Virus record (IMG/VR): IMGVR_UViG_3300030329_004250
Span: 1 to 56,363 of that record
Direction: 5' to 3' (one strand)
Length of the DNA stretch: 56,363 nt
Source: a virus
Part shown: positions 6,460 through 43,783 of the stretch, piece by piece
How the letters are laid out: each line of letters starts with the position of its first letter
Numbering within the stretch: the stretch's first letter is position 1
Notes under the pieces: model-generated
The model's database searches: none
What the model was told of the DNA's origin: nothing
What the model saw: the letters and a program-made list of their open reading frames with translations, nothing else
Made by a program: the position numbers and the translations under genes

Positions 6460-6767
6460 ATTCAAAGGACGATCTTTATAAGGAAAAATCTAAGGACAGA
6501 TTGGCTAAAAATTGTAAGAAAAAAGTACAGACCACCATGATTGGCGCACTAAGTAGTATCGAAGATCACTTAGGTTTTTTATGGGGTCACAAATCTGATG
6601 AGGCACTCTCAGAAGAACAAGAGAAGATGAGGCAGCTTTATGAGGAATTAAGATCGGAGATACTGGACAAAGGTAATACGCAAATGCGTAATATAGACGC
6701 TGAACTTACTCAATACGATATTAACTGGAATCGCTATCAGTACCAGATTCCAATTAAACCCCTCTGA
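6456..6767 (+). CDS. Tail assembly chaperone-position protein B
   Basis: A 103-residue protein overlapping the previous gene by ATGA in the -1 frame. It is helical, with a lysine-rich N-terminus, a central MIGALSSIEDHLGFLWG segment, then SEEQEKMRQLYEELRSEIL and a C-terminal NWNRYQYQIP. No enzyme motif is present. Its place between tube and tape measure genes, and the slippery A-run at its start, suggest it is expressed either by reinitiation or as a C-terminal extension of protein A. It could be the second component of a tail assembly chaperone pair. Confidence 0.5.
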   Translation: MNSKDDLYKEKSKDRLAKNCKKKVQTTMIGALSSIEDHLGFLWGHKSDEALSEEQEKMRQLYEELRSEILDKGNTQMRNIDAELTQYDINWNRYQYQIPIKPL

Positions 6768-6778
6768 GGAGAATTACG

Positions 6779-7657
6779 ATGGAAGAAAAAAGAATCACTG
6801 TAAAAAAAGAAACCGGCGAAGGTAAAGACAAAGTTGTAACAGAAACTGATTTGATTATTACTAAGCCCACCAACAAGCAAATGCTGGAAGCTGAACGTGT
6901 CTATAAAGGCGCATTCAGAAAAGCCCTTGAACAAGGTGCAATGCTTCGCAAAAAACTTGGTAATTATATGACGGATCAGGGCATTTGGACTGATAAGCAG
7001 GAAGAAGAATATAACAAAGTTGTCAAAGAGATCAACCTACTAGACTACCAGCTAAACAAAGGTAGGGACGTAGATGGCAACAAGCTCAAGCTAAGTCAAG
7101 CCAAGGAAATGGCCTTTGAGTTGCAAGATAAAAGAATTGAATTCCGGGATTTGATTGCTGAAAGACAGGAGCTTGACCACATGACCGCAGAAGGTCAGGC
7201 AGATACTGAAAGATTCAGTTATCTCGTCTATCTTTGCACAAAAGATTTCCTGACGCAAAAACCTTATTACTCTTCTTATGAGGACTACCAAAATAGGGGC
7301 AATGAGCAGGAAGCTGTAGAAGCCGCCAAGACTGTAGGTGAAATTGTTTACGAAATAGATGAGGATTATGAAGGAACTTTGACGGAAAACAAGTTCCTCA
7401 AACGATTTAAGTTTGCTAATGACAAAAATCAATTAATTGATAAAGATGGAAACCGTATCGATAGAGAGGGTAATAAAGTTGATGAAGAAGGTTATATTCT
7501 AAACAAAGACGGTAAACGTGTTAATGTTAATGACCTTCCTGCTTTAGAAGATGATGAAAAAGTTGACAATGCTGACTTTGAGGACGATTTAGGTGTAGTA
7601 ATAACTGAGGAGAAAAAAGCGACTACCCGGAAGCGGACAGTTAAAAAGAAAGAGTGA
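6779..7657 (+). CDS. Charged helical protein before the tape measure gene
   Basis: A 292-residue protein starting behind TGAGGAGAATTACG. The centre carries YMTDQGIWTDKQEEEYNKV, resembling ENGWWTQDEEDELKQ in the protein at 5455-6459, and both continue with a long coil and then an aromatic and cysteine-containing helix, so the two may be paralogues. Residues about 220-250 hold a short imperfect repeat of the form D-K/R-D/E-G-N/Y (DKDGNRIDREGNKVDEEG). The tail is very acidic and then basic (TTRKRTVKKKE). A scaffold or chaperone for tape measure packing is likely. The gene is closed by a strong terminator. Confidence 0.45.
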   Translation: MEEKRITVKKETGEGKDKVVTETDLIITKPTNKQMLEAERVYKGAFRKALEQGAMLRKKLGNYMTDQGIWTDKQEEEYNKVVKEINLLDYQLNKGRDVDGNKLKLSQAKEMAFELQDKRIEFRDLIAERQELDHMTAEGQADTERFSYLVYLCTKDFLTQKPYYSSYEDYQNRGNEQEAVEAAKTVGEIVYEIDEDYEGTLTENKFLKRFKFANDKNQLIDKDGNRIDREGNKVDEEGYILNKDGKRVNVNDLPALEDDEKVDNADFEDDLGVVITEEKKATTRKRTVKKKE

Positions 7658-28414: not shown

Positions 28415-28443
28415 AAAAAAAGGGGCCGGGAATTCCCGACCCC
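28415..28443 (-). terminator. Intrinsic terminator, minus strand
   Basis: On the minus strand, GGGGTCGGG and CCCGGCCCC form a 9-bp stem (one G-T pair) around an AATT loop, followed by seven T. It begins two bases after structured element A and ends 14 bases before the start of the 86-residue gene, so it acts either as an operon end or as an attenuator for that gene. Confidence 0.8.
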
Positions 28444-28445
28444 CT

Positions 28446-28516
28446 AATCTACTACTAAGTGAAGATTTGAACCTGGATTGAACCAGATGATGCATTGAAC
28501 TTAGATGATGTAGACT
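28446..28516 (-). ncRNA. Structured element A (one of three copies)
   Basis: Read on the minus strand, the outer helix pairs AGTCTAC with GTAGATT. A second helix CTAAGT/ACTTAG follows, then a 10 x 10 internal loop that begins TCAA on both strands, then helix ATCTGG/CCAGGT closed by a six-base TTCAAT loop. The same plan occurs at 39526-39598 and 43784-43854 with compensatory changes. The element starts inside the TAG stop of the upstream gene and is followed two bases later by an intrinsic terminator. No known family recognised. A cis-regulatory RNA, a processing site or a small 3' RNA are all possible. Confidence 0.65.
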
Positions 28517-28844
28517 ATTCTTCTTTTTGAGTTTCCGGGTTCCACTTAACCCATCCACGGTCAGGTAGCCAATTGCCATCGGCATCTTTCCGCTTTGGAA
28601 ATAGCCCGCCACCCTTCTTGTGACAACCAAATGCTAGTTTAGCACCACAGTCTAGACAACGTACTTCATAGTATTCGTTATCCTCAACCTGACGCACCAC
28701 AAACTTGACATTTGTTGATCCACATTTTCCACAGGTTGTTTCGTCAAAAACTTCCTGAAAGGCCGCGAGTTGCCCAAATAGATCTCTCTGGGTTTCCCCT
28801 TCAAGTTCTACTGACATTTTACCTGTGTTGTAAGTAACTTTCAT
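28515..28844 (-). CDS. Zinc-ribbon phage protein (109 aa)
   Basis: The N-terminal half reads YNTGKMSVELEGETQRDLF and FQEVFDETTCGKCGS. A second pair is CLDCGAK, and the C-terminal half has KKGGGLFPKRKD and NWLPDRGWVKWN. This is a familiar small phage zinc-ribbon family found near recombination or ssDNA-handling genes, of unknown biochemical function. Start ATG directly follows the stop of the putative annealing protein (TAAATG). That coupling supports a shared role in DNA metabolism. Confidence 0.65.
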   Translation of the reverse strand: MKVTYNTGKMSVELEGETQRDLFGQLAAFQEVFDETTCGKCGSTNVKFVVRQVEDNEYYEVRCLDCGAKLAFGCHKKGGGLFPKRKDADGNWLPDRGWVKWNPETQKEE

Positions 28845-35450: not shown

Positions 35451-35907
35451 TTACTGCTCTTAACTTATTATAAAATGACCTGACTTTAGCTTTATAGTCC
35501 TTTTTTGACATATCCAAAATATCCCTAATTTCCATATCTTTGTAATTTGATCTTTTGTAGTAAAAGATAGCTTGTTCTTCAATATCTAAATCATCTGGCA
35601 AAACTTCATCTATAGCTGTTTTATCATAAGTTGTAAAACTGCCTAGAAAGTCGCTTAATGCTATATCTCTGTTTTTGTTCTGTTTTTTAATAAACTTAAT
35701 TAGATCATTTCTAATACAGAAAGTAGCAAATGTAGAAAAGACACTTCGGCTAGGGTCGTGCTTCCTATATGCTTTAAGCATTGACATTAAAGCCACTTGT
35801 ATTATATCCTCAAAATCATAATTATGACCGTGAGAATAAAACTTACGGGCTAACGAAATCGCTAACCCGTAGTTTTCATTTATAAAATCATTTTCAGTAT
35901 TCTTCAT
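35443..35907 (-). CDS. Sigma-70-like transcription factor (154 aa)
   Basis: Residues 10-75 form sigma region 2: ENYGLAISLARKFY, DFEDIIQVALMSMLKAYRKH and FSTFATFCIRNDLIKFI, including the core-binding and -10-melting helices. Residues about 108-150 (IEEQAIFYYKRSNYKDMEI... KKDYKAKVRSFYNKL) look like a region 4 helix-turn-helix. It would redirect host RNA polymerase to phage promoters, probably the late structural block on the opposite strand. ATG 35907 is preferred over an upstream GTG. It overlaps the SSB gene by 14 bases. Confidence 0.8.
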   Translation of the reverse strand: MKNTENDFINENYGLAISLARKFYSHGHNYDFEDIIQVALMSMLKAYRKHDPSRSVFSTFATFCIRNDLIKFIKKQNKNRDIALSDFLGSFTTYDKTAIDEVLPDDLDIEEQAIFYYKRSNYKDMEIRDILDMSKKDYKAKVRSFYNKLRAVNE

Positions 35908-36211
35908 CTGCACTCGTCTGTAAGTTATTGACTATCTTAAATTCATTGACTCTAAAAGTTACTTTACCGTTACCGCTACGTGCTGTACAGTTTACCACCA
36001 AAGAGTCTCCTACTTCACAATGGTCATAAATAGTTTGCGCGCCACTGTCCCATGCTTCAAAGAATAGGAAGTTCCTATCTCTAATTTTCTGACCGCTTTT
36101 ATTTTTGCGGTACTTATCAATTGACATTTTAAATCTAAGAACTTTCGTGTTGAATTCTTCTGAGATATTCATGTCTTCAGCAATACGTCCAAGAAAAACA
36201 CAATTATTCAC
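35894..36211 (-). CDS. ssb: Single-stranded DNA-binding protein (OB fold)
   Basis: A 105-residue OB-fold protein: NNCVFLGRIAEDMNI at the start, then VLRFKMSIDKYRK, NFLFFEAWDSGAQTI, CEVGDSLVVNCTARS and a final VTFRVNEFKIV strand. This is the strand order of bacterial SSB, with a shortened acidic tail (TSADEEY) that usually docks partner proteins. Its neighbours are the polymerase C-terminal fragment and a sigma factor. It coats ssDNA at the replication fork. Confidence 0.75.
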   Translation of the reverse strand: MNNCVFLGRIAEDMNISEEFNTKVLRFKMSIDKYRKNKSGQKIRDRNFLFFEAWDSGAQTIYDHCEVGDSLVVNCTARSGNGKVTFRVNEFKIVNNLQTSADEEY

Positions 36212-36215
36212 AACG

Positions 36216-36485
36216 CTACCTCTTTTTAGTTAAGGAGTTAAAACGCGAAAAAGCTTCGTTATAGTTATGATACTGTTCAATAACCTCTTTTGATCCTTTA
36301 TTTGATTTGTAGATCTGTATTCGAGGTTTTTCTATATCATATCGACTACGAGAACGAGAGCGAAAAAAGAAACGTAGATCACACATTTCTACGTCATATT
36401 TTTTTATAATACAACCATCAAGCAAGACTTTCTTATAGTAGTCCACTTGGTTTAAGAGATTGGTTTCCCAGTTTTGATCAGTCAT
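36216..36485 (-). CDS. Hypothetical arginine-rich small protein (89 aa)
   Basis: It starts in an ATGA overlap with the polymerase C-terminal fragment. The centre is very basic (RFFFRSRSRSRYDIEKPRI), followed by a tyrosine-rich helix. No family is recognised. Position between polymerase and SSB suggests a replication-linked nucleic-acid-binding protein, but nothing in the sequence proves it. Confidence 0.45.
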   Translation of the reverse strand: MTDQNWETNLLNQVDYYKKVLLDGCIIKKYDVEMCDLRFFFRSRSRSRYDIEKPRIQIYKSNKGSKEVIEQYHNYNEAFSRFNSLTKKR

Positions 36486-38014
36486 ATCTGATTTATTTCG
36501 TTTACGATGAACGAGTTTCGGTCCCTAGCACGCTGACCAAACATTAAGACTGTAGCGGTCTCATATATTATATCCTGATACTGATGATATATGTCAGGAA
36601 AAACGACAACATTTTCAATTTCTACAGAATCGTCTCTAACTGATAGAAATGCCATCTTGTCTTTGTTCTTGGTCGTGTGCTCTTTTACTTGAGTGATTTC
36701 AACAGCTAGTATACTTTTATTCTTCTTACCGTCAAGCACTTCTTTGCAGGTCGTGTTGGCGAAACTAGCGTCAGCACAGCCATCTACTTTTGAGTAAGAG
36801 ATAGGGACACCAAGCAGGTTTTCTTCACTAATTGAAATCGACATGGGATTGTCTTTTAATGATCTGCCGGGATTTTCTAATCTATTAATTATATCTGAAA
36901 ATGCTTCTAGTCTTTTGGTCGTTGCAACAGCACCGCCGTCTTTTTTTAATCTATTCAGGTTTATGAGATTATCTTTTAAAGATAGGGAGGAATCTACTCT
37001 GTCTTGCAGGGTCTCCAATTCTTTCTTACTCAGATCTTTTATGCAAGAGAATTCGTGGGTCATTTCTGATCTTGACTTTTTCAGTCCCGCGAAGAATCCA
37101 ACTGCAATAAGATTGTTTACCGCCCTTTTATTTACATTGGGTAAAATGTTCACTACATATTCTACCCAGGTTTTTGGTTTTAGTTCGTTAAGAAAATCCT
37201 TGAGTTTGATGAATTCATTTACTCCAACATTTTTGACATTGGTTATGCCGAAGTAAATGTCCCTATCCTGTATAGAGAAGTTTGATTCTGGATATTCATG
37301 TAGGGGTGTTTTTACGTTGATATGGTCTAACTTGGCACTCTCTACAAGTTCATAAATTTCCTGATTGGGATCGATTTTTTCTTTTGCATTTGACAGCCAG
37401 TGAAGATAAAACTCCAACTTTTTATTAGCTTTTAAATAGGCAGACCAGTACGCCATCAGTGCATACGATACTGCGTGTGATTTGTTGAAAGAATACCGGT
37501 TAGACTTTTCGATAATATCAAAGATTCTATCAGCATCTTCTTGTGTATGTCCTTCTTTTAGGCATCCTTCAATGAACTCACCTTTGACCTGACGCATGAG
37601 GTCAGCTTTTTTCTTACCAATCGCTTTTCGCAAAGTATCAGCTTGTGACTCTGTGAAGCCAGCCATGACCTGTGCAATTTGCATAGCTTGTTCTTGGTAA
37701 ATGATAATATTATAGGTTCTGGAGATTACCTTGTCAATAGGTTCGTACAGACTTTTAGTTTCTTCTATATTATGTTTTCTGTCCACGTACCTTTGGGTCA
37801 TGGACTTCCCGTCTTCGATAGCTTTTAGTGTACCGGGACGGATGATAGAAATAACGTCAGCCAGTTCCTCGATATTGCGGGGTTTAGCCTCTTTGCACCA
37901 ATGTTTACCAAGATGAGTTTCTAACTGGAACACGCCTTTGGTATGACCGGAACAAATCAAGTCCCAAGTTTTTTTGTCTTTAAGATTGCATTTTGTGATA
38001 TCAATAGTGTCCAT
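36482..38014 (-). CDS. dnaE: DNA polymerase III alpha, C-terminal fragment
   Basis: 510 residues from ATG 38014, which has GGAGG nine bases upstream. An in-frame TTG and ATG lie slightly earlier but lack such a site. The sequence opens at the middle of DnaE: DITKCNLKDKKTWDLI then TKGVFQLET, followed by ISIIRPGTLKAI, IIYQEQAMQIAQVMAGF, DTLRKAIGKKK and NKSHAVSYALMAYWSAYLK, the fingers and nucleotide-binding core. The C-terminal part contains the helix-hairpin-helix and OB-like regions (ILAVEITQVKEHT... ENVVVFPD). The catalytic aspartates are not here but in the separate fragment at 39587-40429. It must assemble with the other two pieces to act as the replicase. Confidence 0.88.
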   Translation of the reverse strand: MDTIDITKCNLKDKKTWDLICSGHTKGVFQLETHLGKHWCKEAKPRNIEELADVISIIRPGTLKAIEDGKSMTQRYVDRKHNIEETKSLYEPIDKVISRTYNIIIYQEQAMQIAQVMAGFTESQADTLRKAIGKKKADLMRQVKGEFIEGCLKEGHTQEDADRIFDIIEKSNRYSFNKSHAVSYALMAYWSAYLKANKKLEFYLHWLSNAKEKIDPNQEIYELVESAKLDHINVKTPLHEYPESNFSIQDRDIYFGITNVKNVGVNEFIKLKDFLNELKPKTWVEYVVNILPNVNKRAVNNLIAVGFFAGLKKSRSEMTHEFSCIKDLSKKELETLQDRVDSSLSLKDNLINLNRLKKDGGAVATTKRLEAFSDIINRLENPGRSLKDNPMSISISEENLLGVPISYSKVDGCADASFANTTCKEVLDGKKNKSILAVEITQVKEHTTKNKDKMAFLSVRDDSVEIENVVVFPDIYHQYQDIIYETATVLMFGQRARDRNSFIVNEINQI

Positions 38015-38186
38015 ACAAGCAAACCTCCGCATCAACTTTTTGAATTACCCATTTTTTAATTGTACGGGTCGTCCCGTATTTTTCAAGACTGATTCCACGA
38101 ATGAAATCTCTCCAATACTGTGTCTCTATATCTTCTGGACTTTTTTCTTTAGTTTTTCTATTGTTGGACCACTTAACCTGTTCCAT
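38001..38186 (-). CDS. Small hypothetical protein in the second polymerase gap (61 aa)
   Basis: A 61-residue basic frame overlapping the nuclease gene by 61 bases and the polymerase fragment by 14. It fills the only space between them, and GGAG lies upstream of its ATG at a long spacing. The centre reads TQYWRDFIRGISLEKYGTTRTIKKW, a plausible helical DNA-binding protein. No family recognised. It could be an artefact of overlap, but its position makes translation likely. Confidence 0.4.
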   Translation of the reverse strand: MEQVKWSNNRKTKEKSPEDIETQYWRDFIRGISLEKYGTTRTIKKWVIQKVDAEVCLYGHY

Positions 38187-38824
38187 AATTGTAAGCCGCT
38201 CCTGAATTCTATATAGTTCACCGATACAGCGAAGTCATTATACTTTGCATCTATTTCTTCGTTAGGTATAATAAAAGAGTAGATTTTGATCTTGCCCTTT
38301 GAATCTTCAACCAGCATACTTTTAAAAAACTCATGTGGCACAACCACATCTTCACCAATTTTAGAAAATGGTTTGGTGATATCGAACACGGGTCCGCTGA
38401 TAGAATAAACCTCTACCACATTTTCTTTAAGAGCCATTGTCCTAGCTTCTTCTTCTAACATCCTCCAAACTTTACGATTTAAATCTGGATGTTGCGGAGC
38501 CATGTTAGACATTAGAAATGTTTCACTATTTTCCAATCTGCTCGAATTCCGATCCGCAGAAGGCACCAGATGCCCCCTATCGTAGCCTGAACCGCGATAA
38601 TCCGCTAGACTGCACCGGAAGGTTTCTGGGATTCTCAAGTCCGGTCTGAAGCAATCCTCGCGGTCTACAGAGACATCCTCTGCCTGACCGTCAATAATGT
38701 GCATGGACCATCTTGGTTGCCGGAATAAGTAGGAATAGCCGATCAAATAATTCCGGTTTGGAAGGATCTGATCGGCAGTTGGCATACCGTATCGTGTTTG
38801 TGGGAATAAGCTTGGTATTTCCAT
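38126..38824 (-). CDS. DNA/RNA non-specific (NUC-type) endonuclease
   Basis: Residues 82-92 are DRGHLVPSADR, the catalytic loop of His-Me finger endonucleases of the NUC/NucA family, with His85 as general base. About 20-35 residues later come SNMAPQHPDLNRKVWRMLEEE, whose asparagine and glutamate complete the metal site. No signal peptide is visible, unlike secreted family members, so it acts in the cell, for example on host DNA. It overlaps the exonuclease gene by one base and lies in the second break of the polymerase gene. Confidence 0.8.
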   Translation of the reverse strand: MEIPSLFPQTRYGMPTADQILPNRNYLIGYSYLFRQPRWSMHIIDGQAEDVSVDREDCFRPDLRIPETFRCSLADYRGSGYDRGHLVPSADRNSSRLENSETFLMSNMAPQHPDLNRKVWRMLEEEARTMALKENVVEVYSISGPVFDITKPFSKIGEDVVVPHEFFKSMLVEDSKGKIKIYSFIIPNEEIDAKYNDFAVSVNYIEFRSGLQLWNRLSGPTIEKLKKKVQKI

Positions 38825-39504
38825 TAGGCAAAAGCTCCTTTAAACTTTTTGTTATATACAAATCTTCTAAACATCTTCATGGTTCTACAGAATAACTCAG
38901 CAGTCATGAGAACATCACTAAGTGCATCATGGGCCTCGCCTTGTGAGTATCCCATGTAACCACGCACTAGGTTATCATTAGATAGTGAATTAACCTCTTT
39001 GTTATTTTCAAAACAGCAGAACATCAAATCTAATGTGTCCACTATATTAATTGGATTGAATAAAGACTGCCGCCTACCATCTTTATCTTTTGGTCCGTAA
39101 CCCCAAGGTTTTTCACAACAAATCCTGTGAACAATCGGCATGTCAAACCCGCGAATATTATGACCAACCGCAATTGGTGCATACCAAGGGGTCTTTTTAA
39201 AATTGTATTCATTCACATAATCAGTGAAGTTTGACCAGACTGATTTTAGTGATGGAGCCTTCTTGAGCATGGCTTCGGTTTTACCATGAACAGCGACAGC
39301 ACCATCTTCAAGAACATCGACTCCAGCTTTAGCACATTCTTTCTCGTCGAAGATAGGCTGGATTAAAGATTGGAATTCTGAGTTAGGTATGACCTCCAGC
39401 TTCCTGCCGTGAATCGCCACAGCAGCAATTTGCACTGGCTGAGTGGTATCTGGATATTTGCTCGTAGTTTCAAAGTCGAAAACAATGTAGTCTTTGTAAT
39501 TCAT
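38824..39504 (-). CDS. DnaQ-like 3'-5' exonuclease
   Basis: A DEDDh exonuclease: FDFETTSKYP (Asp10, Glu12), GHNIRGFDMPIVH in the middle, and GEAHDALSDVLMTAEL with the catalytic His and Asp. A 226-residue single-domain enzyme, probably the proofreading subunit for the fragmented alpha polymerase around it. Start ATG 39504 follows AAAGGATTATT, about 20 bases after structured element B. Confidence 0.85.
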   Translation of the reverse strand: MNYKDYIVFDFETTSKYPDTTQPVQIAAVAIHGRKLEVIPNSEFQSLIQPIFDEKECAKAGVDVLEDGAVAVHGKTEAMLKKAPSLKSVWSNFTDYVNEYNFKKTPWYAPIAVGHNIRGFDMPIVHRICCEKPWGYGPKDKDGRRQSLFNPINIVDTLDLMFCCFENNKEVNSLSNDNLVRGYMGYSQGEAHDALSDVLMTAELFCRTMKMFRRFVYNKKFKGAFA

Positions 39505-39525
39505 AATAATCCTTTGTAAGAAAAT

Positions 39526-39598
39526 GGGGCGTCTAAGTGAAAGCGTGAATCTGGATCGGCATTACCGCCCAGATAATTACCTAAACTTAGATCACCCC
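39526..39598 (-). ncRNA. Structured element B (one of three copies)
   Basis: On the minus strand the outer helix pairs GGGGTG with CGCCCC, a bulged A follows, then TCTAAGT pairs with ACTTAGA. A 10 x 10 internal loop (TTAGGTAATT against TCACGCTTTC) and the helix ATCTGG/CCAGAT come next. The terminal loop is longer than in the other copies and holds its own CGG/CCG stem. The TAA stop of the catalytic polymerase fragment lies in the 5' strand of the inner helix, so the fragment's last residues (GVI) are encoded by the element. It precedes the exonuclease gene. Confidence 0.65.
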
Positions 39599-40429
39599 AC
39601 ATGTTTCATGTATTTTCTTTAATAAATTAACACCAAGGATGTCGAACTTGACAGCACCAATAGCCTCAAGATCACCCATTTCCATCCCCGCGATTTTTTC
39701 ATTACCGCGAGTTTCTTTGACCATAGGGCATAGATTATTCAGATCTATAGATGATACTACCACACCAGCGGCGTGTTTTCCTTGAGTTTTGAATGTTCCT
39801 TCAATTCTAAGAGCTTGGGCAAAATCTCTAGCAAAGTCGCCGTGTAATTCACCATCTTCTTCCCAACAGTATTCTCTTAGTGTATCCGGGTCATTTTCCA
39901 AGGCCCATCGAATAACTGATGGCTCATCCATTTCTTCTAATTTATCAGAGATTGCAGCTTCTTGCGGAATCTTATTTGTGATATCGTTCATCTGGTCGAA
40001 TGAGCAACTCTCATTAACTCTTAGAACTTCTTTTAATGCGGATCTACCTTGGAGTCTACCAAACGTCAGCATCTGGCAAACCCTATCTTCTCCGTATTTT
40101 TCTTTTAGATAGATGATGACATTCTCTCGTTGGTCTGGCGGGAAGTCAACATCAATATCTGGTAATGACGCTTTTGCTTCCACAAAAATTGTTGGAGCGT
40201 TTTCGTCCACGCTCTTGACTTTATCATAAATCCACATGATGTAACTGTTTTTAGGATTATCTGATGATAAATCAATATTGTTTATTATATGTTTATAATA
40301 TTCCTTTCCTTTTTTCATTTTCAGAACTACGTTCATTTCTTCCTGAAAATGATTGTTTTCGGAAACTCGATTAAACCGTTTTTCATTTGGAAGTTTACCA
40401 AAAAATGTTTCAAGTTCTGTAATATTCAT
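39587..40429 (-). CDS. dnaE: DNA polymerase III alpha, catalytic middle fragment
   Basis: 280 residues. Residues 88-97 are SLPDIDVDFP, the first two catalytic aspartates of C-family polymerases (Asp91, Asp93). KEKYGEDRVCQMLTFGRLQG and SALKEVLRV follow, then TQGKHAAGVV and VKFDILGV, whose Asp263 is the third catalytic residue. The N-terminal 85 residues (MNITELETFFGKLPNEKRF onward) have no counterpart in ordinary DnaE at this point, and the protein stops at HETCGVI, short of the fingers. It starts inside the end of the LAGLIDADG gene. It is a separately translated palm fragment. Confidence 0.88.
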   Translation of the reverse strand: MNITELETFFGKLPNEKRFNRVSENNHFQEEMNVVLKMKKGKEYYKHIINNIDLSSDNPKNSYIMWIYDKVKSVDENAPTIFVEAKASLPDIDVDFPPDQRENVIIYLKEKYGEDRVCQMLTFGRLQGRSALKEVLRVNESCSFDQMNDITNKIPQEAAISDKLEEMDEPSVIRWALENDPDTLREYCWEEDGELHGDFARDFAQALRIEGTFKTQGKHAAGVVVSSIDLNNLCPMVKETRGNEKIAGMEMGDLEAIGAVKFDILGVNLLKKIHETCGVI

Positions 40430-41342
40430 TAACCTTGTCCCATTTACGATTTAGTTTTATAGTGTTTTCGTCAAAGGTGTTAAGTTTGGTTAAAATCTCC
40501 AAAACGTCATTTTTTGCTGACCATCGTACATCGTACAGTTCTTGATTTTTTTTCTTGTATATTCTTTTACTCTTAAAACCAAGAGTGTCACACACTTCTG
40601 TTAGTGTGTCTTTTAAGTAGGAGCAAGCGCCTATATTTGGGTAACGATATTCTTTTCTGTATCTTTTATTATATGTAGTTTTAATTCCGACCCATCCATC
40701 AGCATCTATAAAACCACGAATAAAATCGTATTGATGTGTTTTTGGCACTGGTATGATCTGATCATAAGTTTTTCTGTTGATGATTCCATTATTTTTTAAG
40801 TTATCAACTAAATATGGATTCGTTACTCTTAATAAGCTCTTGGTTTTATATTTATAAACCCTATCCACCCCATAGATATAGTTAGACAGTTTTATCAGAT
40901 GACCTTCATCCTTCTTTGACAAACATACTTGCAAATTCGTATAATTTTTATCAACTGACCCGTCACCAAAAATAAATCCCAACCAATACGAGGATTCTGG
41001 AGTTATCTCAGAAAAGTTATTAATGACATCAAACCTTTTATGCTCTATAAAACACTGGTGTGAGCAGTACTTAGCTTTTCTACTTGGGGATCTTTTAACT
41101 ATTTCTTTACAATTTAGACATCTGATCTCTTCTTTTATAGAAACCATTTGTTTTCTAATTGGGCACCATTGACTACAAGATTTTATTTTTAGTTTTTTCA
41201 ACTGCTGTATTTGAATAGTTCTCTTTTTTCCACAATCACAGATACAATCAACCACCTGTCTTCTATGACTGCCGCAGCCGTATTCTTCCAAGTAGTAAGG
41301 GGTAGATATTACTGTTAGTAAATCATATTTAGTGTTCTTCAT
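40410..41342 (-). CDS. LAGLIDADG homing endonuclease
   Basis: A 310-residue protein with both family helices: YWLGFIFGDGS (about residues 119-129) and FIRGFIDADGWVG (about 207-219), each with its catalytic acidic residue. The N-terminal 100 residues carry cysteine pairs (CICDCGKK, CLNCKE, CSHQC) that probably bind zinc and DNA. It lies exactly between polymerase fragments, just before the PDIDVDF coding region, the kind of conserved site these enzymes target. Its 3' end overlaps the start of the catalytic fragment by 20 bases. Ribosome-binding site AAAGG lies seven bases from ATG. Confidence 0.88.
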   Translation of the reverse strand: MKNTKYDLLTVISTPYYLEEYGCGSHRRQVVDCICDCGKKRTIQIQQLKKLKIKSCSQWCPIRKQMVSIKEEIRCLNCKEIVKRSPSRKAKYCSHQCFIEHKRFDVINNFSEITPESSYWLGFIFGDGSVDKNYTNLQVCLSKKDEGHLIKLSNYIYGVDRVYKYKTKSLLRVTNPYLVDNLKNNGIINRKTYDQIIPVPKTHQYDFIRGFIDADGWVGIKTTYNKRYRKEYRYPNIGACSYLKDTLTEVCDTLGFKSKRIYKKKNQELYDVRWSAKNDVLEILTKLNTFDENTIKLNRKWDKVNEYYRT

Positions 41343-41359
41343 TTTTAAACCTTTAGTAG

Positions 41360-41402
41360 TGGGTATAAAACTCTCCGTAATAGTTATACACCCAAACTGG
41401 GT
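41360..41402 (-). promoter_or_regulatory. Two mutually exclusive hairpins in the homing endonuclease leader
   Basis: In the 60-base gap after the N-terminal polymerase fragment, the minus strand has ACCCAGTTTGGGT (short hairpin, 41390-41402). An imperfect larger stem pairs TGGGTGTATAACT (41382-41394) with AGTTTTATACCCA (41360-41372). Both use the same TGGGT, so only one can form at a time. This could regulate endonuclease expression. Confidence 0.4.
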
Positions 41403-42716: not shown

Positions 42717-43766
42717 CTACTTATCCTTTTCAACTCTGTCTTCTGCTAATCGACCACCACCGTCACCATACTTTGAAATCTTTGAGATATCGCCGTATTG
42801 CTCGATGGTCTTTACAATTCCTTGAGATTTTACCATATCTCGGAAGAAATGGCAAGTGGACTTTCCAGAATTTTCCCATTCTTCCGAAAATTTGCACAGA
42901 TATTTACATTTCCAGTGTGTGTTTTCTGATGATAAAAGTCTGGGCTGTTCAACGGACCTAATATACTCAAACTTTTGTCTCAGTATGTCTTCTGCCTTTT
43001 GGTAATCTTCTTCATCGAAGACCATGCTAAACAAACCACCCGGAACATCCACCCCATCTATCTTTGAGTCATTAATATAATAAATGCTAACAAAGAATTC
43101 CCAATCCGGATACATATTCTTAAGGGCGTAGTAGTACAGAAGAAGCTGAGTGTCTTTCTGTAGTTTTTCTGGGGTTTTGATTTCTCCAGTCGCCCAATCA
43201 ATCCGTTTGCCGGTTTTATAATCTAATACCTGAAAGTACTTATCGTCTTCTTGGGTGATTAAATCTATAGTTCCTTTAATAGATAAATACCCTTCGATTT
43301 TTTCCCCGCCTACATCATAACTATATTTTGCCCACGGTTTCTTGATTTCAATATCAAAGAATAATTCCGTAGCATGGACATTTTGATTTCTTGGATCTAG
43401 CTCACCGTCATTGTATGCTACCGCTTTCTGGACCCATCTTATGCAGGTTCTCAGGTCTGCTTTGGTTAGTTCGACCTCTGGCTCATGTTCTGCATAGTAG
43501 TCAAAACATAATTCAGTTATGTGCGGTAGGTCATCACATTTTTTGTAAGATAGGTTGGGGATATCATCATTGATAACCTTACCGACCTTGTTCTTCTGCG
43601 CCAGATTCTTGTCTGCCAATAGCTGCAATGCGCGATGAACAACCGTACCAAGAAGTGCCTTCCTGTTGGTTTTATCGCGTAATGACAGATTGTATTGGAG
43701 AAAGAATTTCTGTTCACAAAATTCTAACTGACCAAGTGAACTAGATCTGTGGTAGCATACTAACAT
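42717..43766 (-). CDS. Cas4/RecB-like PD-(D/E)XK nuclease with likely Fe-S cluster
   Basis: A 349-residue protein. SSLGQLEFCEQKFFLQYNL at the start and LGTVVHRALQLL form the first helical and His motif. KGTIDLITQEDDKYFQVLDYKTGK is the PD-(D/E)XK core with the catalytic Asp and the D-x-K pair. Cysteine in EFCEQ plus CKYLC and STCHF near residues 288-310 have the four-Cys spacing of Cas4/AddB-type Fe-S nucleases. Likely an exonuclease for end processing in recombination or host DNA breakdown. It starts about 20 bases after structured element C. Confidence 0.75.
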   Translation of the reverse strand: MLVCYHRSSSLGQLEFCEQKFFLQYNLSLRDKTNRKALLGTVVHRALQLLADKNLAQKNKVGKVINDDIPNLSYKKCDDLPHITELCFDYYAEHEPEVELTKADLRTCIRWVQKAVAYNDGELDPRNQNVHATELFFDIEIKKPWAKYSYDVGGEKIEGYLSIKGTIDLITQEDDKYFQVLDYKTGKRIDWATGEIKTPEKLQKDTQLLLYYYALKNMYPDWEFFVSIYYINDSKIDGVDVPGGLFSMVFDEEDYQKAEDILRQKFEYIRSVEQPRLLSSENTHWKCKYLCKFSEEWENSGKSTCHFFRDMVKSQGIVKTIEQYGDISKISKYGDGGGRLAEDRVEKDK

Positions 43767-43783
43767 AATTGCTCTTATAAATT

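Follow-up and report, generated by a model that had tools for sequence, protein, structure and literature searches.

A clade-wide split of DNA polymerase III alpha with an exonuclease gene between the halves in uncultured viruses

We describe a family C DNA polymerase, DNA polymerase III alpha of the DnaE type, that is encoded in separate open reading frames (ORFs) with a DnaQ-like exonuclease gene between its two halves. It was found in the IMG/VR virus record IMGVR_UViG_3300030329_004250 (56,363 nucleotides; this whole stretch of DNA is referred to as the window). The split at the palm/fingers boundary is an old, inherited trait of a whole clade and not the result of recent nuclease damage. 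The window polymerase is very probably a constitutively split alpha that goes back to one ancestral fission and serves as an obligate three-protein replicase, alpha-N : exonuclease : alpha-C. With somewhat less assurance, we consider it likely that a widespread uncultured clade replicates with a family C enzyme whose active centre comes from two obligately separate chains, divided once between palm and fingers, and that the exonuclease gene between the halves couples synthesis and assembly of the three-protein core.

Results

Alpha-N holds all three catalytic Asp residues, and alpha-C holds the fingers, HhH and OB domains. Both belong to a gene cluster that lies entirely on the minus strand of the window (Table 1), where alpha-N is itself interrupted and falls into two parts. 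Part 2 of alpha-N terminates in ...VKFDILGVNLLKKIHETCGVI followed by a stop codon, and alpha-C starts at the ATG at 38014 (MDTIDITKCNLKDKKTW...), about 10 nucleotides (nt) downstream of a GGAGG. A TTG at 38035 was considered as the start of alpha-C and was judged less likely than the ATG with its GGAGG. The gap of ~1.57 kb between this stop and this start contains the exonuclease (EXO), a DRGH nuclease (NUC), an ORF of 61 amino acids (aa) and structured element B. A preliminary description of this DNA had reported the break, the restart with its own GGAGG site and the same gap contents, with element B at the left junction, and had read the polymerase as three parts translated on their own, the proofreading exonuclease lying in between. 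The sequences, distances and GGAGG site that it gave were all correct, and the parts are separate ORFs with start sites of their own.

The full motif set of a DnaE-type alpha is present: a PHP domain, the GRGS motif, a three-Asp palm (two catalytic Asp in PDIDVDF and the third in VKFDILG, both in alpha-N part 2), and the fingers, HhH and OB domains. What departs from that type is the single polypeptide, in place of which separate ORFs occur at 160 loci. The palm residues D423, D425, D600 and R379-S381 are invariant over the aligned lineages (alignment A3). The same is true of the exonuclease residues D11, E13, D131, H196 and D201 (alignment A4), the DEDDh set of a DnaQ/epsilon-type exonuclease. 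NUC has both the Endonuclease_NS profile match and the DRGH motif of a DRGH nuclease.

By sequence, the window halves stop at ~573 and restart at 584 of E. coli alpha. Window alpha-C aligns with E. coli alpha 584-848, alpha-C of the relative L004 with 589-899, and the intact alpha-N of the close relative L003 with 9-564. Structure models were made for both L004 halves (mean pLDDT 87.6 and 87.8). Superposed on 2hnh, the alpha-N model corresponds to E. coli alpha 3-576 (Z 38.8, 564 residues aligned, 4.0 A) and the alpha-C model to 579-910 (Z 20.2, 325 residues, 3.3 A). The alpha-C model matches the fingers and OB of alpha; on 5fkv its match reaches 580-1071 with a poor root-mean-square deviation (13.5 A), which presumably reflects a different placement of the OB domain. 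The halves tile E. coli alpha (3-576 and 579-1071), and therefore a few residues at most are missing, which bears out the earlier view that little or no polymerase sequence has been lost. The cut falls ~20 residues past the third catalytic Asp (E. coli D555), at what we take to be the palm/fingers boundary from the domain limits of the E. coli structure.

A scan with window alpha-C returned 74 IMG/VR loci. In relatives that are 35-45% identical, alpha-N is, with few exceptions, one ORF of ~620 aa; a ~60-aa ORF comes next in most of them, then the exonuclease, and then alpha-C as a separate ORF. A profile search brought up 577 or more related stretches in viruses. Among bacteria and archaea, with a single genome for each species, it gave 7 more split loci (on contigs of metagenome-assembled genomes, MAGs) together with unsplit bacterial dnaE. 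When loci were classified by hidden Markov models, 160 were split with the exonuclease between the halves, 75 were unsplit (bacterial and phage), 4 lacked the upstream part and 2 were special cases. The same split point, with the exonuclease in between, was thus found in every classifiable clade member (160/160). Removal of near-duplicates left 110 distinct split loci. EXO overlaps or abuts alpha-C in most of them, with a median spacing of -4 nt, i.e. a 4-nt overlap, and in L065 and L174 alpha-N also overlaps EXO by 4 nt.

From 36 split and 28 unsplit rows, one tree was built for alpha-C and one for alpha-N. In both, all split rows are gathered on the same side of a branch whose support is 100, and a single state change accounts for the distribution, compared with a mean of 21 when states are shuffled. 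The trait is therefore that of a single clade. The three genes alpha-N, EXO and alpha-C have been co-inherited, since their evolutionary distances are correlated with one another (r = 0.93-0.94, p 0.001). A collection of 50,697 phage records yielded no cultured member of the clade. The best polymerase matches there are ~30-34% identical, the three annotated regions that were checked are unsplit, and the exonuclease has only matches of 24-30% identity.

Two loci were rejected as candidates for a split without an exonuclease. L231 consists of overlapping frames on a short contig and is most likely a frameshift, and L192 is a bacterial dnaE with an insertion of the group II intron reverse transcriptase (RT) type. 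In the latter, from a Clostridiales MAG (L192:4092-6884), the RT/HNH ORF sits exactly at the codon for the third catalytic Asp, near the viral split point.

Of the 110 distinct loci, 100 share a conserved CxC motif (F.CGC.F) at the alpha-C N-terminus (e.g. L004:7899-7990); the motif is lost or absent in the window's group, in L173 and in L174. It is possible that this CxC forms a new interface or a metal site at the cut.

The halves are separate polypeptides and could both be in use without forming one polymerase, with alpha-C acting, for example, as a free regulator, or with pairing to host alpha. The 10 loci of 110 at which alpha-C starts without the N-terminal CxC would fit such separate use, and some of them arise because inteins misplace the estimated start. 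Against it stand the fixed adjacency of the genes, their coupled translation, their correlated evolution and the exact complementarity of the fragments, and we regard separate use as improbable.

Twenty virus records of the clade, window included (45-224 kb), were scanned for polymerases. Each contains a single fingers domain and a single palm region, the latter divided into two neighbouring pieces in G000 and G011. Family A and family B polymerases were found in none of the twenty, and the control genomes do give matches. Where dS is not saturated, the ratios of nonsynonymous to synonymous substitution rates (dN/dS) between the window and its close relatives are 0.05-0.08 (alpha-N), 0.03-0.13 (EXO) and 0.04 (alpha-C). 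Both polymerase halves are thus under strong purifying selection, and together with their retained Pol III motifs this speaks against a chance finding. The 61-aa ORF has a dN/dS of 0.32-0.49, and its coding status is weakly supported. A gene in pieces is the sole point in favour of a polymerase that is decaying or non-replicative in a virus that relies on another enzyme. That reading is very improbable in view of the dN/dS of 0.04-0.08 on the two halves, the retention of all catalytic residues and the lack of any Pol A or Pol B in the 20 records.

Introns and inteins are frequent in phage polymerase genes, and the halves might be rejoined by RNA or protein splicing, through an intron around the exonuclease or through a split intein. 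In addition, alpha-C of L003, L056, L067, L069 and L071 seems to carry separate inteins. Yet the window gave no Rfam intron match, either at the gathering score or at E<=10 (unrelated weak hits only), and the gene overlaps of relatives (alpha-N/EXO in L065 and L174, EXO/alpha-C in most) leave no space for intron cores; a group I or group II intron around the insert was rejected on these grounds. A split intein of the cyanobacterial DnaE type was likewise rejected: there is no IntN or IntC, and alpha-N ends (E. coli 576) and window alpha-C begins (~584) directly in polymerase sequence, with no intein-like ends. The 4-nt overlaps, and a junction free of intron and intein sequence, rule splicing out in practice, and we find it scarcely credible. 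The apparent inteins of the relatives lie in the fingers; that of L003 (L003:6996-9347) starts after IRPG and ends with HN before Cys. A LAGLIDADG ORF is present in L071.

The preliminary description had taken the second break, between alpha-N and alpha-C, for an insertion event like the first, with NUC as its possible mobile agent, and had proposed a search for relatives that are unbroken there. NUC does lie in the gap, and NUC of L001 is 69% aa identical to window NUC as against 89-93% for the neighbouring genes, which suggests exchange at the exonuclease/alpha-C junction. However, NUC is confined to the window's closest relatives, more than 100 distinct relatives without NUC have the identical split, and at the same spot the sister lineage L174 has an unrelated gene of the endonuclease VII type. 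No close relative is intact at the second break. Instead of the pattern of a gene in pieces, in which near relatives are intact and the endonuclease is the sole difference, close and distant relatives are all split, and the 160 loci keep one gene order in which the subunits are independent and ancestral, the outcome that the preliminary description had itself named as speaking against an insertion. That a mobile, NUC-bearing element recently broke the polymerase here is hardly tenable. Because NUC occurs only in the closest relatives, it entered an exonuclease/alpha-C junction that already existed, and the varied genes at this junction mark it as a landing place, of which NUC is a tenant and not the builder. 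In L001, a SET-domain gene (6756-7169) lies between the exonuclease and NUC.

The first break (40430-41402) is of another kind. Alpha-N is intact as one 614-aa ORF in L001-L003, and tblastn matches of both alpha-N parts are contiguous in L080 and L082 too; among the window's close relatives, only the window has an alpha-N split by a LAGLIDADG ORF. Here the near relatives are intact and the LAGLIDADG ORF stands at the junction, as in a gene in pieces. The distant L035-L041 lineage has a homologous ORF at the same site (32% identity to the window ORF). Residues 1-85 of alpha-N part 2 form an extra head, and a homologous head is found in the L035 group (34% over 83 aa). From these sequence comparisons, the first break looks like a recent homing-endonuclease insertion, in which the splitting cassette would have homed between lineages. 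The window tail upstream of the break (FYNNSRSYEKHVSF) resembles the flank of the distant lineage and not that of L003, and co-conversion is therefore suggested.

A 76-nt intercistronic hairpin, R1, occurs three times in the window (Table 1); structured element B is one of these copies and forms the most stable 90-nt stretch in the contig. The R1 core pattern is CTARGTTCA-N6-TCATCYGGTTYARTCCRGRTTCA-N6-TCACYTAG, for which zero chance matches are expected, and in two of the three copies the stop codon of the upstream gene lies inside the stem. In the proposed pairing, 87.5% of cells are paired, compared with at most 53% when the pairing is slid, and the covariation score is 0.226 versus at most 0.148. 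Five pairs have changes on both sides; slid versions give similar counts, and the argument for the pairing therefore rests on the paired fraction and the covariation score. A separate set of 6 sequences was also used to count pairs and covariation.

With model R1, the hairpin was found in 10 of 15 records tested, which are close relatives of the window or contigs found by the element's own pattern; it was not found in other split lineages among these records. Element B was rejected as a trace of the split, since R1 occurs only in close relatives and at several places per genome. There was no Rfam match over 39520-39603 at the gathering score or E<=10, and element B was not called by a terminator scan whose loop limit of 3-8 may miss it. 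The position of R1 at gene 3' ends, before the next ribosome-binding site, suggests a role in mRNA processing or stability. This position resembles that of the intercistronic untranslated sequence (IC-UTS) at the split gp43 of 44RR (PMC2988022).

On the minus strand, the cluster runs through RNR, UvsX/RecA-like, DnaB helicase, DnaG primase, dNMP kinase, the ORF labelled RecB_up, alpha-N part 1, the LAGLIDADG ORF, alpha-N part 2, the exonuclease, NUC, the 61-aa ORF, alpha-C, the 89-aa ORF and the SSB-like ORF to further genes. The 89-aa ORF is possibly an accessory subunit. By eye, a small ORF between alpha-N and the exonuclease in the MAG contig L173 looks similar to it.

Table 1. Features of the split polymerase cluster in the window
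Feature	Position	Strand	Remarks
R1 copy 1, immediately 3' of a gene's stop codon, close to where the same cluster ends	28443..28518	minus	Model R1 64.1 bits
SSB-like protein, 3' of alpha-C in most of the clade	35894..36211	minus	Position and similarity
Small conserved ORF, 89 aa, 4-nt overlap with alpha-C	36216..36485	minus	
Alpha-C: fingers, HhH, OB domains, 510 aa	36482..38014	minus	Pfam DNA_pol3_finger 4e-46, HHH_6 9e-6; OB weak
Small ORF, 61 aa, overlaps NUC and alpha-C	38001..38186	minus	No family match; coding status uncertain
NUC: DRGH DNA/RNA non-specific nuclease, 232 aa	38126..38824	minus	Pfam Endonuclease_NS 2.3e-45; YDRGH in sequence
DnaQ-like 3'-5' exonuclease (epsilon-like), 226 aa	38824..39504	minus	Pfam RNase_T 2.2e-16; PHROG 192 DNA polymerase exonuclease subunit
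Structured element B: intercistronic hairpin with alpha-N stop codon, R1 copy 2	39520..39603	minus	Model R1 62.7 bits
Alpha-N part 2: palm/thumb, 280 aa	39587..40429	minus	Pfam DNA_pol3_alpha 1.6e-33
LAGLIDADG homing endonuclease ORF in first break	40410..41342	minus	Pfam LAGLIDADG_3 3e-6, LAGLIDADG_1 9e-5
Alpha-N part 1: PHP domain and palm start (GPGRGSAAG motif), 437 aa	41403..42716	minus	Pfam PHP 9e-28, DNA_pol3_alpha 2e-28
ORF between dNMP kinase and alpha-N part 1	42717..43766	minus	Working label RecB_up
R1 copy 3, encloses stop codon of dNMP kinase gene	43781..43856	minus	Model R1 84.5 bits

Discussion

We propose that in the common ancestor of the clade the alpha gene would have been divided once, just downstream of the third catalytic Asp, and that alpha-N (PHP, palm and thumb) and alpha-C (fingers, HhH and OB) would have remained separate genes ever since, with the exonuclease gene between them. 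Coupled translation from one operon would supply matched amounts of alpha-N, exonuclease and alpha-C, and these would assemble into an active proofreading polymerase with no covalent link. In the window, a LAGLIDADG homing endonuclease would in addition have cut alpha-N recently, giving three polymerase parts, and NUC and the small ORF would have entered the pre-existing exonuclease/alpha-C junction.

Several points weigh against this account. Non-covalent assembly, catalytic activity and co-translational assembly are predictions. Single virus records may be incomplete, so that the lack of other polymerases carries weight only over the records taken together. The branch that bears the split clade is long. 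No virus from near the clade's base turned up with its alpha gene intact; the ancestral event is thus unseen, and insertion of the exonuclease is indistinguishable from fission followed by gene shuffling.

To our knowledge, every bacterium has a family C polymerase as its replicase, and descriptions of these enzymes give alpha as a single chain. In cyanobacteria dnaE is split, at a site other than that of the window clade, and the halves are ligated by a split intein; the archaeal MthPolB is a family B polymerase made of two polypeptides. We know of no exonuclease gene between the halves in either. Group 2.2 jumbo phages have a minimal split DNA polymerase III alpha, two stand-alone proteins that are thought to reconstitute the enzyme (PMC7824862). 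In these phages the other Pol III domains are absent, the genes are distant from each other and a family B polymerase is present alongside (PMC7824862), whereas in the window clade alpha is full length with PHP and OB, the genes are adjacent, the exonuclease lies between them and no family A or B polymerase occurs in the 20 records.

Essential enzymes in two polypeptides are also known from T4-like phages, namely Aeh1 nrdA, T4 gene 60 and gp43A/43B of phages 25 and 44RR (PMC2988022). Split gp43 co-purifies and polymerises, and split gp43 and NrdA reassemble into active enzymes (PMC2988022). These splits affect individual phages, in family B polymerases or in other enzymes, and are tied to homing endonucleases or an IC-UTS (PMC2988022). 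The window clade, by contrast, has an inherited, clade-wide split of a family C enzyme with an exonuclease gene between the halves, and only the first break of the window fits the T4-like class. In the OM43 phages MEP401/402, a family A polymerase is in two ORFs in most group members; a small ORF of unknown kind lies between them, and the authors suspect an intron (PMC10580990). A full-length, adjacent, clade-wide, sole-replicase split Pol III with an exonuclease between the halves was not found described in a literature search, most subscription papers being outside its reach. The full-length, adjacent, sole-replicase split alpha thus appears to be undescribed.

Conclusions

Automatic annotation reads split polymerases of this kind as broken genes, which is a warning for the interpretation of viral genomes. 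Where a nuclease appears to have broken a gene, the break can be a long-standing boundary between subunits, in which mobile genes later found a safe landing place. A natural two-part Pol III is a tool for studying communication between palm and fingers and the matching of exonuclease and polymerase amounts. In its only replicase, this clade of viruses separates the chemistry half of the enzyme, the palm, from the half that positions the substrate, the fingers.

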